A DNA stretch of 64,000 nt from Caulifigura coniformis (lineage in GTDB: Bacteria > Planctomycetota > Planctomycetia > Planctomycetales > Planctomycetaceae). Below are positions 28,416 through 37,204 of this stretch, piece after piece (position 1 is the stretch's first letter; each line of letters opens with the position of its first letter). The notes under the pieces were generated by a model, which saw only the letters and a program-made list of their open reading frames with translations, ran no database searches and was not told where the DNA came from. Where the stretch lies: contig NZ_CP036271.1 in the NCBI RefSeq assembly GCF_007745175.1, positions 1,446,154 through 1,510,153 of the forward strand. The letters are read 5' to 3'. The position numbers and the translations under genes are program-made.

Positions 28416-30155
28416 TTACTGCGCCTCCTTCACCGGCATCGGCACGCTCGCTGGCAGCGTATAATCGCGCTCCACGGTCGCCCGGACCGCCTCGCGCGAT
28501 TCTTTCGGCGTCACCCCGTCCGTCTGCTCGATCCTTCGTACCTCCGCCCCGAGTGCGACGTCCTTGATGCACTCGGTGAACCACCGCGAGTAATCGCCGC
28601 GGCTCAGGTGGTACATCCACGTGTCGTCGTCGATTCCCTCGGCCAACTGCAGGAACATCATGATGTTCTGGGCACGCAGGTGCATCGTCGAGGCCGGCCC
28701 CGTGAAGTAGAAGCTCCGCTCCTTCGAAAGTTCTCCTTCCACGTACTTGCGGCGATGACGGTGCCGCTCCGTCTTGCTGGGGTAGGCTTTGACCAGTCGG
28801 GCCGGGCCGTCGGAATCGCGTCGCCAGATCAGGACTTCTCCCGACTGTTGCGGCAACTCCCCAATCTCCGGAACCGAGGCGCCGACCGCGGTGGCAAACT
28901 TCTGGATGTTCTCCCGCGCGTTCTTGCCCACCGCCACGATGTACTGGATTCCGTCCAGGATCGAAGGCGGCAACAGATCCGGGTGCACCGTGATCAGAAG
29001 GGTGTTCCGCAGCGTCTCCGGCATCACGGCCTCGGCCGGCTTCCAGTCGGCCGGCATCAGGTGATGAGCTTCGTCGAGAATCACCCAGTGAGGATGCCCG
29101 GTCTTGCTCCGCTTCTGCATCAGGTCCGACATCAGCGTCAGGAAGAACGGCGGCCGGTCCGCAATCTTCATCCCCGTCATGCACACCACGGCGTTTGACA
29201 TCGGATTATCGAGAAGCCGCAGGATCTCGTCCTTTGGAGGAGGCGACTGCGGCCCGCCGAACACCACCGCCCCCTCAAATTTCTCGTAGTCCCCTTCAGG
29301 ATCGATCAGGCAGAACTGGTACCGCTGCTCGATCAGCGACTCCACGATCCGCGTCGCCACTGTCGACTTTCCGCTGGCGGAGGGACCGCAGATCAACACC
29401 CCGTTCGTGTACGGCGGCAGACAGACTTCCTCCTCCCCGCTCTTGCCGACAGGCAGGTAATGCCGCGTGAGCCGCTTGTCGAGATCCGACAGGTCATTGC
29501 GGATCATCCCCGTGATGAGCTGGCTGACTCCTTTCCCATGATCGAGCGTCGTCACGATGTCAGCCGTGTCTTTCACCGCCGGCAGGGCGTTGGAGACCGC
29601 GGCCGAAACTTCGCACATCCGCAGCAGCGCGTGGTCATTCTCCGCGTCGCCGACCGCCACCACGTTATGAGGCGACAGGTTCATCACCTTCAGCGCCGCT
29701 TTGAGTCCCGACGCCTTGTTGACGTTGGCGGGGAGGATCATCACCGCCCCCTTGTTGAAGATCACCTGCATTTCGAGACCCATCTCATGGATCACTTCCA
29801 GGCAGGTCTTCTCATGCGGCTCCCAGGTGGCGACGATCACCCGTCCTACGGAGATCGGGCCCACACCCCGGCTCTTGAGTCGTTCCACAAACTCCGGCTT
29901 GGGGGGATCGGCCAGCGGCCGCTCTTCCTTGGTCGCCGGGCAATACAGCAGTCCCCCGTTCTCGGCAACCACCCACTCGAAGAGATCGAGATCAGGGCAA
30001 ACGGTCTTCAGTTCGGGAAGTTCACGGCCGGTGACCATGATCAGCCGCCGGCCCGAGGCCAGCAGCTTCTTCAGGTGATCCACCGTCTCCGCGTCGACTG
30101 CTCCATGGTGGGCCAGCGTGCCGTCATAGTCGGTGGCGAGAGCGTGATAGCGCAT
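28416..30155 (-). CDS. HAD-IIB phosphatase fused to HerA/FtsK-like ATPase
   Basis: This 579-residue protein combines two modules. Residues 1-230 form a Cof-type HAD hydrolase: nucleophile motif DYDGTLA with Asp9 and Asp11, VTGRE at 41-45, and VGDAENDHALL at 168-178. Residues 245-420 form a P-loop ATPase with Walker A GPSASGKST (257-265) and Walker B WVILDEAHH (357-365), most like HerA/DUF87 proteins. The last 110 residues (SFYFTGPASTMHLRAQNIMM ... GDYSRWFTECIKD) form a further conserved-looking domain. The physiological substrate is unknown. It is cytoplasmic and transcribed alone. Confidence 0.85.
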   Translation of the reverse strand: MRYHALATDYDGTLAHHGAVDAETVDHLKKLLASGRRLIMVTGRELPELKTVCPDLDLFEWVVAENGGLLYCPATKEERPLADPPKPEFVERLKSRGVGPISVGRVIVATWEPHEKTCLEVIHEMGLEMQVIFNKGAVMILPANVNKASGLKAALKVMNLSPHNVVAVGDAENDHALLRMCEVSAAVSNALPAVKDTADIVTTLDHGKGVSQLITGMIRNDLSDLDKRLTRHYLPVGKSGEEEVCLPPYTNGVLICGPSASGKSTVATRIVESLIEQRYQFCLIDPEGDYEKFEGAVVFGGPQSPPPKDEILRLLDNPMSNAVVCMTGMKIADRPPFFLTLMSDLMQKRSKTGHPHWVILDEAHHLMPADWKPAEAVMPETLRNTLLITVHPDLLPPSILDGIQYIVAVGKNARENIQKFATAVGASVPEIGELPQQSGEVLIWRRDSDGPARLVKAYPSKTERHRHRRKYVEGELSKERSFYFTGPASTMHLRAQNIMMFLQLAEGIDDDTWMYHLSRGDYSRWFTECIKDVALGAEVRRIEQTDGVTPKESREAVRATVERDYTLPASVPMPVKEAQ

Positions 30156-35149: not shown

Positions 35150-35185
35150 TTGTCGACCTCGGGCAGGCACGATATAAACCTGCCC
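35150..35185 (+). promoter_or_regulatory. Promoter with palindromic operator around its -10 box
   Basis: TTGTCG (35150-35155) is separated by exactly 17 bases from TATAAA (35173-35178). A perfect 7-bp inverted repeat, GGGCAGG (35161-35167) and CCTGCCC (35179-35185) with an 11-base spacer, brackets the -10 box. Such a placement fits a dimeric repressor site that would block RNA polymerase. The downstream gene starts at 35205, leaving a leader of about 20 bases. Confidence 0.6.
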
Positions 35186-35204
35186 AGAGAAGAGGTGGTC
35201 GTGG

Positions 35205-35447
35205 ATGGCCACCGTTCAAGCCAGCGAAGAACGCAGGCGTTCACACAGACGGAGCGAGATTGTGGAACCGCTTGAGATCGAACTGGAAGTTGGAGAGACT
35301 CTGATCCTCGGCGACCACAGACTCACGCTGCTCGAAATCGACGGCGAACTCGTTGCGGTCCGAGTCGAATCTCCCGACGACTTCTACTTCGACCCGACGG
35401 CCATCGGCGACGTCCATCCGCGCACCCGGACTTTCACACGCAGCTGA
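35205..35447 (+). CDS. CsrA-like small protein
   Basis: This 80-residue protein has a central segment, LEIELEVGETLILGDHRLTL then LEIDGELVAVRVESPDDFY, that aligns with the CsrA/RsmA fold (VGE..IGD...VL...G..V..GI.AP). The N-terminal extension of about 22 Arg/Glu-rich residues is not present in CsrA. The positions equal to CsrA Arg6, Arg7 and Arg44, used for RNA binding, appear to be Leu, Glu and Pro, so classical RNA binding is doubtful. It starts at the ATG at 35205, after AGAGGTGG. It is preceded by a strong promoter with a palindrome. The family assignment is inference from pattern. Confidence 0.55.
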   Translation: MATVQASEERRRSHRRSEIVEPLEIELEVGETLILGDHRLTLLEIDGELVAVRVESPDDFYFDPTAIGDVHPRTRTFTRS

Positions 35448-35454
35448 AGGCGTC

Positions 35455-36672
35455 TTACGACGGCCAGTCGTCCGGGATCGACGTCAGCGTCACAAGATCG
35501 TCATCTGCATCGGCGACCGTGCTGGAATCGATGATTCGCACCGCCGCAGGGGCCACGGGCGGTGCTGGCTTCTGGGGGGCAACCTGACGCGGCGCCACCG
35601 GAGCGATCGGCATGGGCTGCCTGGGCACGGCATTCCGGCCAGTCGGCATCCGCAGGAAGAAGTCTGGAATCTCTGAAGGTAACGCCCCCCCGGTTGGCAA
35701 CGTCGGCGTCAGGGTCGTCGCCATGTCCTGCAGCTCGGCAGCCGTCGCGAGCGGCGCTTCGATTTCGGCCTTCGATTTCGGCACGGCAGCTGCCGGCTTC
35801 GCGGTCGCCGCAGTCGGAGCAGGTGCGGGGGCGACAGGAGCAGCCGGCGGAGTTGGAGCAGCAACGGGCGTCTCAGGCTCAGCGTGCGGAGCAGGCGACG
35901 ATTTGAAGATCTCGGGGAACGCCTGGACCGGCAGGGCCGCCTCAGACGGGGCTGCCGGCAGTTCGTCCACCGGAGACTGGCCGATCAGGGCGTCGATCTC
36001 ATCGGTCTGCGTCAACGCCGATGCAACCGCGGTCGTCTGTGACAGCGAGACGGTGGAAGCAGGTGCATCACTGTTCAGGACGCCTGCAGCTTCCTCTTCA
36101 GCAATGGTCGGATCGCCCGTAACAGGCAGGTCCATCCGCGAATCGAACTCATCCCCCCACACGTTCTCGACCCCAAGTTCGGGGTCCGAGACGTCACCGT
36201 CGTCGCCGCTGAAGGCCGGAGGAGGAACAACCAGCATCGCCTCGTCGAATTCGTCGCTCGCCAGGTCGCTGGCATTGCCCGGATCGATGAACACCGGCAG
36301 TGCGTCGTCCGAATTCTCCGGCGGTGCGGGAACGGGAGTGCCATTCACAATCGCGGCCACCGCGAGCGCGTCGGTGTCCAGGGCGGGTGCGTCTTCGGAA
36401 GGTTCGACCGTCTGGACGGGCGTCTCAATCACGACCGGCGCAGCAGTAGCGGCCAGTGCCTGCATCGAAGCGAACTTGAACAGGCAGTAGGAAAGCAGGC
36501 CGCCAATGAAACAGATCGCCACGGCAACGCCGCTCGCGATGCTCCCCATCAGCAGGTCCCCCTCCTGGAAACCATTGAAGGCGAGGAATCCGCCAGCGGC
36601 CGTCGCCAGCAGTGTTGCGGCCGACGCAACCCATCCGCCGAGCCGGATCACTTTCGAATCACGCAGATTCAT
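35455..36672 (-). CDS. Membrane protein with Pro/Ala-rich acidic domain
   Basis: This 405-residue protein has two N-terminal membrane helices (WVASAATLLATAAGGFLAF and GSIASGVAVAICFIGGLLSYCLF). A long, probably disordered acidic and Ala/Pro-rich region follows, with an APVAPAPAPTAATAKPAAAVPKSK-type stretch and no folded domain I recognise. The ATG at 36672 follows GAGGTG and is preferred over a GTG at 36684. It converges on the CsrA-like gene with only seven bases between stops. It may tether proteins at the membrane; this is a guess from composition. Confidence 0.65.
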   Translation of the reverse strand: MNLRDSKVIRLGGWVASAATLLATAAGGFLAFNGFQEGDLLMGSIASGVAVAICFIGGLLSYCLFKFASMQALAATAAPVVIETPVQTVEPSEDAPALDTDALAVAAIVNGTPVPAPPENSDDALPVFIDPGNASDLASDEFDEAMLVVPPPAFSGDDGDVSDPELGVENVWGDEFDSRMDLPVTGDPTIAEEEAAGVLNSDAPASTVSLSQTTAVASALTQTDEIDALIGQSPVDELPAAPSEAALPVQAFPEIFKSSPAPHAEPETPVAAPTPPAAPVAPAPAPTAATAKPAAAVPKSKAEIEAPLATAAELQDMATTLTPTLPTGGALPSEIPDFFLRMPTGRNAVPRQPMPIAPVAPRQVAPQKPAPPVAPAAVRIIDSSTVADADDDLVTLTSIPDDWPS

Positions 36673-37204
36673 GCGAGGAATCACCTCGGTTCGAGCCCCC
36701 CTCGTGACGGGGACGACTCGAACTCACGTCGGACAAACTTACGGAAGACAAGCCAGTTCACGCAGCCATCGACCCGAAGCAGGACGCCTCAAACCGCCAG
36801 AACGTTCCCGCACTCAAGCCACTTCAGGGCCAGAAAACTGGCCCGGCTGTACCACCGAAGCCGGATTCACTCCGACCGGCCCACAACCCCTTCCCGTTCA
36901 ACAGTCCATCCAAGTGGGGACATTCAACGAATACCCCCTCGCCCGAATATACCTCCTCATGCAGAGGGAGGTTCTACGCAACTCCAGATTATGATAGAGA
37001 TTTCGGCGTTCCACCGCGAGACACGCCTCAACGACCCTCACAACCCGATCCTCCGCGGCGACGACGCCCGCGCCGGCATCGCCCCGCGAAGATTTCACAC
37101 AATCCACGGACAGTTCAGGGGATACAACCCCGCTCGCCACGCGGGACCGTGGCCCGACCGCCTGGCGTCTCACTCGGCCCGTCCTGCCGGCTCCCCCCTT
37201 CGTC
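36673..37204. other. Gene-free region before the GTPase gene
   Basis: No coding sequence is supported in these 532 bases. A long plus-strand frame running from about 36991 has no recognisable domain and an Arg/Pro-rich composition typical of an out-of-frame reading. A short palindrome, ACCTCC/GGAGGT, lies at 36951-36972. Divergent promoters are expected but not clear. Confidence 0.4.

Follow-up and report, generated by a model that had tools for sequence, protein, structure and literature searches.

A conserved acidic relative of CsrA in Planctomycetaceae as a candidate modulator of CsrA

The window, a 64,000-nucleotide stretch of Caulifigura coniformis DNA, encodes a 61-aa protein that belongs to a conserved acidic family in the Planctomycetaceae, and profile comparisons indicate that this family, which we describe as one of a new type, is related to CsrA. 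CsrA is a global post-transcriptional regulator. The explanation we consider best, and put forward tentatively, is that the family protein is a CsrA-derived modulator of CsrA that has lost RNA binding and is itself under CsrA control. A more specific version, in which the acidic protein would act as an antagonist, disarming CsrA by mimicking RNA or by forming mixed dimers, its own translation being repressed by CsrA, is possible and is offered with greater reserve. The elements of the locus are collected in Table 1.

Table 1. Features of the gene for the acidic CsrA-related protein and its upstream region
Feature	Position in the window	Strand	Basis
Promoter-like element TTGTCG-N17-TATAAA	35150..35178	+	Exact in the sequence; near-equal spacing and GTG distance in congener G001
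Inverted repeat GGGCAGG-N11-CCTGCCC with 7-bp arms on either side of the -10 box, probably due to chance	35161..35185		Sequence
Probable 5' leader, with GGA at 35203 and 35251	35186..35261	+	Start of transcription deduced from the position of the -10 box
Ribosome-binding site ACGGAG, an ANGGA motif of the CsrA type	35249..35254	+	Ends seven bases before the GTG
Acidic CsrA-related protein, 61 aa, GTG start, stop codon included	35262..35447	+	Sequence, relatives

The earlier note on this DNA had read a longer open reading frame of 80 aa, beginning at ATG 35205 and ending with the stop codon at 35447. The start codon is most likely the GTG at 35262, and ATG 35205 is less likely, because most relatives begin at that alignment point and a GGAG site usually precedes that start (34 of 44 genera; the ten without one include genus g57, of the Gimesia type). 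The gene of the congener G001 points the same way, since both of its in-frame upstream ATGs, at -93 and -282 from the GTG, lie upstream of its inferred -10 box at -87. Against Pfam the window ORF matched no family, the CsrA (PF02599) and FliW (PF02623) models included, and it is not among the nine CsrA matches of its own 6.76-Mb genome. Because neither the Pfam CsrA model nor the RNA-binding residues were found in it, the protein is not classed as a CsrA. Convergent with the gene is a coding sequence for a 409-aa Pro/Ala-rich protein without a Pfam match (35455-36684, minus strand). Elsewhere in the window, a 579-aa protein (28416-30155, minus strand) has an N-terminal HAD phosphatase part by Pfam and, in a C-terminal part without a Pfam match at 1e-5, a Walker-type motif, GPSASGKST.

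A first contig scan with the window protein as query detected no relative, and the protein alone matched in 9 of 59 genomes, its own included. With a nine-row profile, matches at E 0.001 or better were found in 142 of the 170 genomes of the same taxonomic family, representing 48 of 58 genera. The phylum sample gave matches in 54 of 393 genomes; 12 of these lie outside the Planctomycetaceae, all at 2.3e-4 or worse. The rows that we read number 97, for 95 distinct genes in 44 genera; they cover the weakest matches in part, and some of those may be CsrA. By the starts chosen, members are 50 to 94 aa long (median 59), mostly with one per genome. They share a core, E.EL.VGD..IGD..VTV.DI.GDEV.F.ID, which in most is preceded immediately by GTG or ATG. 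Within seven genera, pN/pS ranges from 0.11 to 0.49 (uncorrected, and from pairs that are not independent), and the family is under purifying selection. Conservation and pN/pS together rule out a chance ORF or pseudogene.

Several profile comparisons bear on the relation to CsrA. CsrA chains in the PDB were matched by the nine-row profile at E 1.8e-5 and by a 27-row profile at 1.5e-5; in the latter search the first row that is not CsrA is a riboflavin synthase at 0.0068. Searched singly against Pfam, 6 of 27 members hit CsrA (best 4.5e-4), more than hit any other family, alongside weak matches of barrel type; against NCBIfam, five of the 27 hit CsrA (best 1e-4) and three hit riboflavin synthase (best 0.0013). 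In the genome itself, the nine-row profile gave a single match at E 0.001 and picked up none of the nine CsrAs. Aligned with eight of these by hhalign, 44 members (one per genus) gave a probability of 94.1 and a score of 38.5, and 100 column-shuffled decoys gave at most 3.1 and 15.8. Earlier profile-profile comparisons with the same eight had given probabilities of 89 and 94; adding 17 more csrA genes, themselves found through the family profile, gave 95.7. The most telling evidence, in our view, comes from what the profile picks up at its margin. Twenty weak matches, namely 19 of the 20 phylum-sample matches at 2.3e-4 or worse (all except G152:C105) plus one from the same-family search, were read by eye, and 17 proved to be plain csrA, one a degenerate csrA-like gene and two something else. 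Homology of the family to CsrA thus appears fairly firm on profile evidence.

The degenerate gene (L176, genome G118, around 301-381 on the plus strand) begins MLHVTCG and has no strand-1 Arg. Its genome also has a family member, and it may be a CsrA that has lost RNA binding independently, or an intermediate in such a loss.

The aligned part of the family corresponds to CsrA strands 2 to 4. Strand 1 is present but acidic, and no counterpart of strand 5, which carries Arg44 in CsrA, is recognizable by eye. In the 61-aa form, the positions of CsrA Arg6, Arg7 and Arg44 are occupied by Leu8, Glu9 and Pro45, and that of Leu4 by Ile6; the genome's own CsrAs (eight of the nine aligned) all have L4, R6 and R44. 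These assignments come from alignments that cover the core and were extended by hand into strand 1 and the C terminus, and in strand 1 the alignment may be off in register. The earlier note had described the protein as CsrA-like, changed at these three arginines and with the VGE..IGD core kept. The profile searches, together with relatives that share the losses, bear out this description, except that the core, although kept, is one residue shorter.

Structure prediction divides between two members. An AlphaFold monomer model of the window protein, from 10 sequences, has a pLDDT of 67; the first 14 rows returned by Foldseek are CsrA/RsmA/RsmE (E 0.012 to 0.18), as are the first seven returned by VIA (Z 3.5-5.0, against 2.9 for the next). 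From the same ten sequences, the monomer model of member L107 reaches a pLDDT of 83 and matches barrels of the KOW, SH3, MscS and EF-P types, with no CsrA among the 50 rows listed. For neither model does any Foldseek match reach E 0.001. The resemblance to CsrA therefore holds for the window model and not for that of L107. One could take the L107 model at face value and suppose that the family is a small SH3/KOW-like beta-barrel unrelated to CsrA, its middle three strands alike by convergence; the weak matches of some members to KOW or barrel families in Pfam, and the riboflavin synthase matches in the PDB and NCBIfam searches, would suit such a barrel. We regard this as improbable. The weak genome-wide matches of the profile are mostly csrA, the hhalign match to the genome's own CsrAs is controlled by decoys, and the window model does match CsrA. 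Moreover, since CsrA is a strand-exchanging dimer, the AlphaFold runs, being of monomers and on 10 sequences, may have closed the sheet artificially; no monomer model can display a strand-exchanged dimer.

A CsrA relative might still bind RNA, through other residues or within a mixed dimer of altered specificity. Published accounts of the CsrA family leave room for such dimers: an earlier review called them plausible but undemonstrated (PMC7366521), and two-hybrid assays have since been reported to pair plasmid RsmQ with RsmA and with RsmE (PMC9928087). The composition of the family makes RNA binding very unlikely. Its median pI is 4.05, the floor of the program used, and its median net charge is -8 over a 39-aa core (96 rows), where the genome's own CsrAs carry -1 to +3 over their first 48 aa (n = 8); the positions of Arg6, Arg7 and Arg44 are, as described above, lost.

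If the family protein probably no longer contacts RNA, its own mRNA may nonetheless be a CsrA target. At the window gene an ANGGA motif overlaps the ribosome-binding site, a mark of CsrA-regulated mRNAs. Across the 34 genera with a GGAG site, the site reads CANGGAG in 18, against 14 of 121 background GGAG sites (p 1.2e-6), and ANGGAG in 22, against 30 of 121 (p 2.5e-5). AAGGAG, the stronger Shine-Dalgarno sequence, is not enriched (2 of 34 against 12 of 121). The first member of each genus was taken, and the background sites come from the same loci, with starts assigned by a crude ORF caller; when the member was chosen at random, ANGGAG was found in 21 to 25 of the 34 genera, with a worst p of 8.6e-5. 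All these p-values are post hoc, because visual inspection of the same data had drawn attention to the motif before the seven patterns were tried. In the window the triplet before GGAG is G-A-C, so that the site is ANGGAG and not CANGGAG. The published CsrA consensus is RUACARGGAUGU by SELEX and ANGGAN by NMR, and the same source treats ACA/GGA sites and the parts played by L4 and R44 (PMC7652899). CANGGAG is close to this consensus, and the family pattern fits it.

Other signs of CsrA control in the leaders are sparser. A hairpin presenting the site is significant (p<0.05) in 3 of 34 genera (g24, g34 and g59), against 2.5% of the 121 background sites, and the hairpin ranks differ from background at p 0.04 in a corrected test. 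The window shows no significant hairpin at its ribosome-binding site (p 0.34). A universal CsrA hairpin can be set aside: a first test, which had used a different GGA in some members, gave a Fisher p of 0.46, and the corrected one found hairpins in few genera. Extra ANGGA motifs in the leaders are weakly in excess (0.42 per leader as compared with 0.21, p 0.03; 18 where shuffled sequences give 8.4).

Genus g57 stands apart, with AAAGG in place of GGAG and no GGA there. At its loci (for example L109 near 2983; L113 and L114 near 2974) the leader is TATGAAAGGCTCATA or similar; it might fold into a hairpin whose loop holds the Shine-Dalgarno AAAGG, and it contains no GGA motif. Control in this genus may differ.

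At first inspection, the promoter itself offers another control point. The earlier note had pointed out a TTGTCG-N17-TATAAA promoter, a perfect 7-bp inverted repeat with the -10 box inside it, and from these had supposed tight repression. Promoter-like element and repeat are both present as described; the -10 box lies within the 11-nt spacer of the repeat and in neither arm. The congener has TTGCCG-N17-TATAAC, with 81 nt from the -10 box to the GTG as compared with 83 nt in the window, which lends some support to the promoter call, and a strict consensus scan of the region returned no sigma-70 site. That a perfect repeat exists and flanks the -10 box is what speaks for a transcriptional repressor that binds it and keeps the promoter off. 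We find this barely credible. Perfect repeats of this kind (arms of at least 7, spacer 3-20) occur at 1.67 per kb and in 13% of random 90-bp stretches of the window, and since they are so common the palindrome is unremarkable. Genome-wide, its near-matches within two mismatches (79 places) do not exceed those of a backward control pattern (88). The congener, in which conservation was looked at, shares the promoter spacing but has no such palindrome in the 260 bases upstream of its gene, so a palindrome-binding repressor is unsupported, and with it the tight repression once proposed. On these counts the palindrome is rejected as an operator, and the ribosome-binding site with its ANGGA motif of the CsrA type is the more likely point of control.

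The surroundings of the gene could hint at a different partner. In 13 of 41 loci a GlnD gene lies upstream of it and a P-II gene beyond that; phosphomannose isomerase is encoded nearby in 16 and a STAS-domain protein in 11. At least one of these neighbors is present at 22 of the 41 loci and none at the other 19, among them those of the window and the congener (neighbors were counted by sequence clusters, with Pfam identities checked at one locus, L097). A recurrent block runs amtB, P-II (glnK), glnD, manA, the family gene, STAS and an HtrA-type protease (L097:1456-9963, with part of it at 21 other loci). The pieces of the block common to 22 of 41 loci support orthology across genera. No operon need be assumed, since a leader of its own precedes the gene and the neighboring gene is often on the opposite strand. 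With so many relatives following amtB-glnK-glnD or adjoining manA and the STAS-domain gene, the CsrA-derived fold might serve some partner other than CsrA, for instance in ammonium/nitrogen signaling. This seems to us rather unlikely, given that 19 loci have no such neighbors and that, in the genome of the window itself, the gene is separated from the GlnD-domain matches by about 330 and 720 kb.

CsrA was found in all 170 Planctomycetaceae genomes, in 3 to 17 copies each, and in all 118 genomes of the class sample; there are 9 copies in the genome analyzed here, up to 17 in a g57 genome and 3 to 7 in the genomes of family f3 in the class sample. FliW (PF02623) was found in none of the 170 Planctomycetaceae genomes, this one included, and in 166 of the 393 genomes of the phylum sample. 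With 3 to 17 CsrA genes and no detected FliW, the question therefore arises of how Planctomycetaceae restrain CsrA. The FliW matches include no genome from families f3, f4 and f6, which belong to the same class, so the gap extends beyond the genomes that have the acidic family gene. The idea that the family replaced FliW thus fits only partly, the absence of FliW being wider than the family. A search of the genome for a CsrB-type sRNA (RF00018) gave no match, a result of little weight, as of 14 control genomes E. coli alone matched.

Under the modulator explanation that we prefer, the family would derive from the CsrA fold, with strands 2 to 4 kept and the basic and RNA-contacting residues lost. 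Its protein would no longer bind RNA and would instead modulate the several true CsrAs of the cell, most likely as an antagonist. It might do so by entering mixed dimers with CsrA that are defective in RNA binding, or by presenting an acidic surface to CsrA in competition with RNA. The ribosome-binding site of its mRNA would probably be bound by CsrA, and CsrA, when free, would in this way turn off its own modulator in a feedback loop. A regulator's own fold would then have been turned into its regulator, and the family would serve as a node through which the many CsrA paralogues of the Planctomycetaceae, in whose 170 genomes FliW was not found, are controlled. A conserved CsrA relative whose RNA binding is probably lost is a directly testable candidate for the restraint of CsrA.

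Among known systems, CsrA/RsmA (PF02599) shares with the family a profile similarity over strands 2 to 4, including VGE..IGD..TV..I.G, and a similar size, and one of the two predicted family models appears to superpose on CsrA chains. The family protein differs in having no Arg6, Arg7 or Arg44, in its strong acidity, in the want of a clear strand 5 and in having one residue fewer between strands 2 and 3, and the Pfam model misses the window ORF. Legionella CsrR, which is said in a title to be a paralogue and direct target of CsrA, would resemble the family in being a paralogue that is itself a CsrA target. FliW (PF02623) and CesT are not known to be related to CsrA; they have in common with the family the proposed role alone, that of a protein restraining CsrA, whereas the family protein is CsrA-related and the window ORF has no match to the FliW model. 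These two are the protein antagonists of CsrA named in excerpts of reviews (PMC7652899, PMC7366521), and neither a CsrA-derived antagonist nor the acidic family was found in titles and abstract openings of the open literature searched. Plasmid RsmQ is reported to be a CsrA-family paralogue that forms mixed dimers (PMC9928087), as the acidic protein may; it keeps its RNA-binding site and binds GGA/ACGGA, whereas the acidic family has lost that site.
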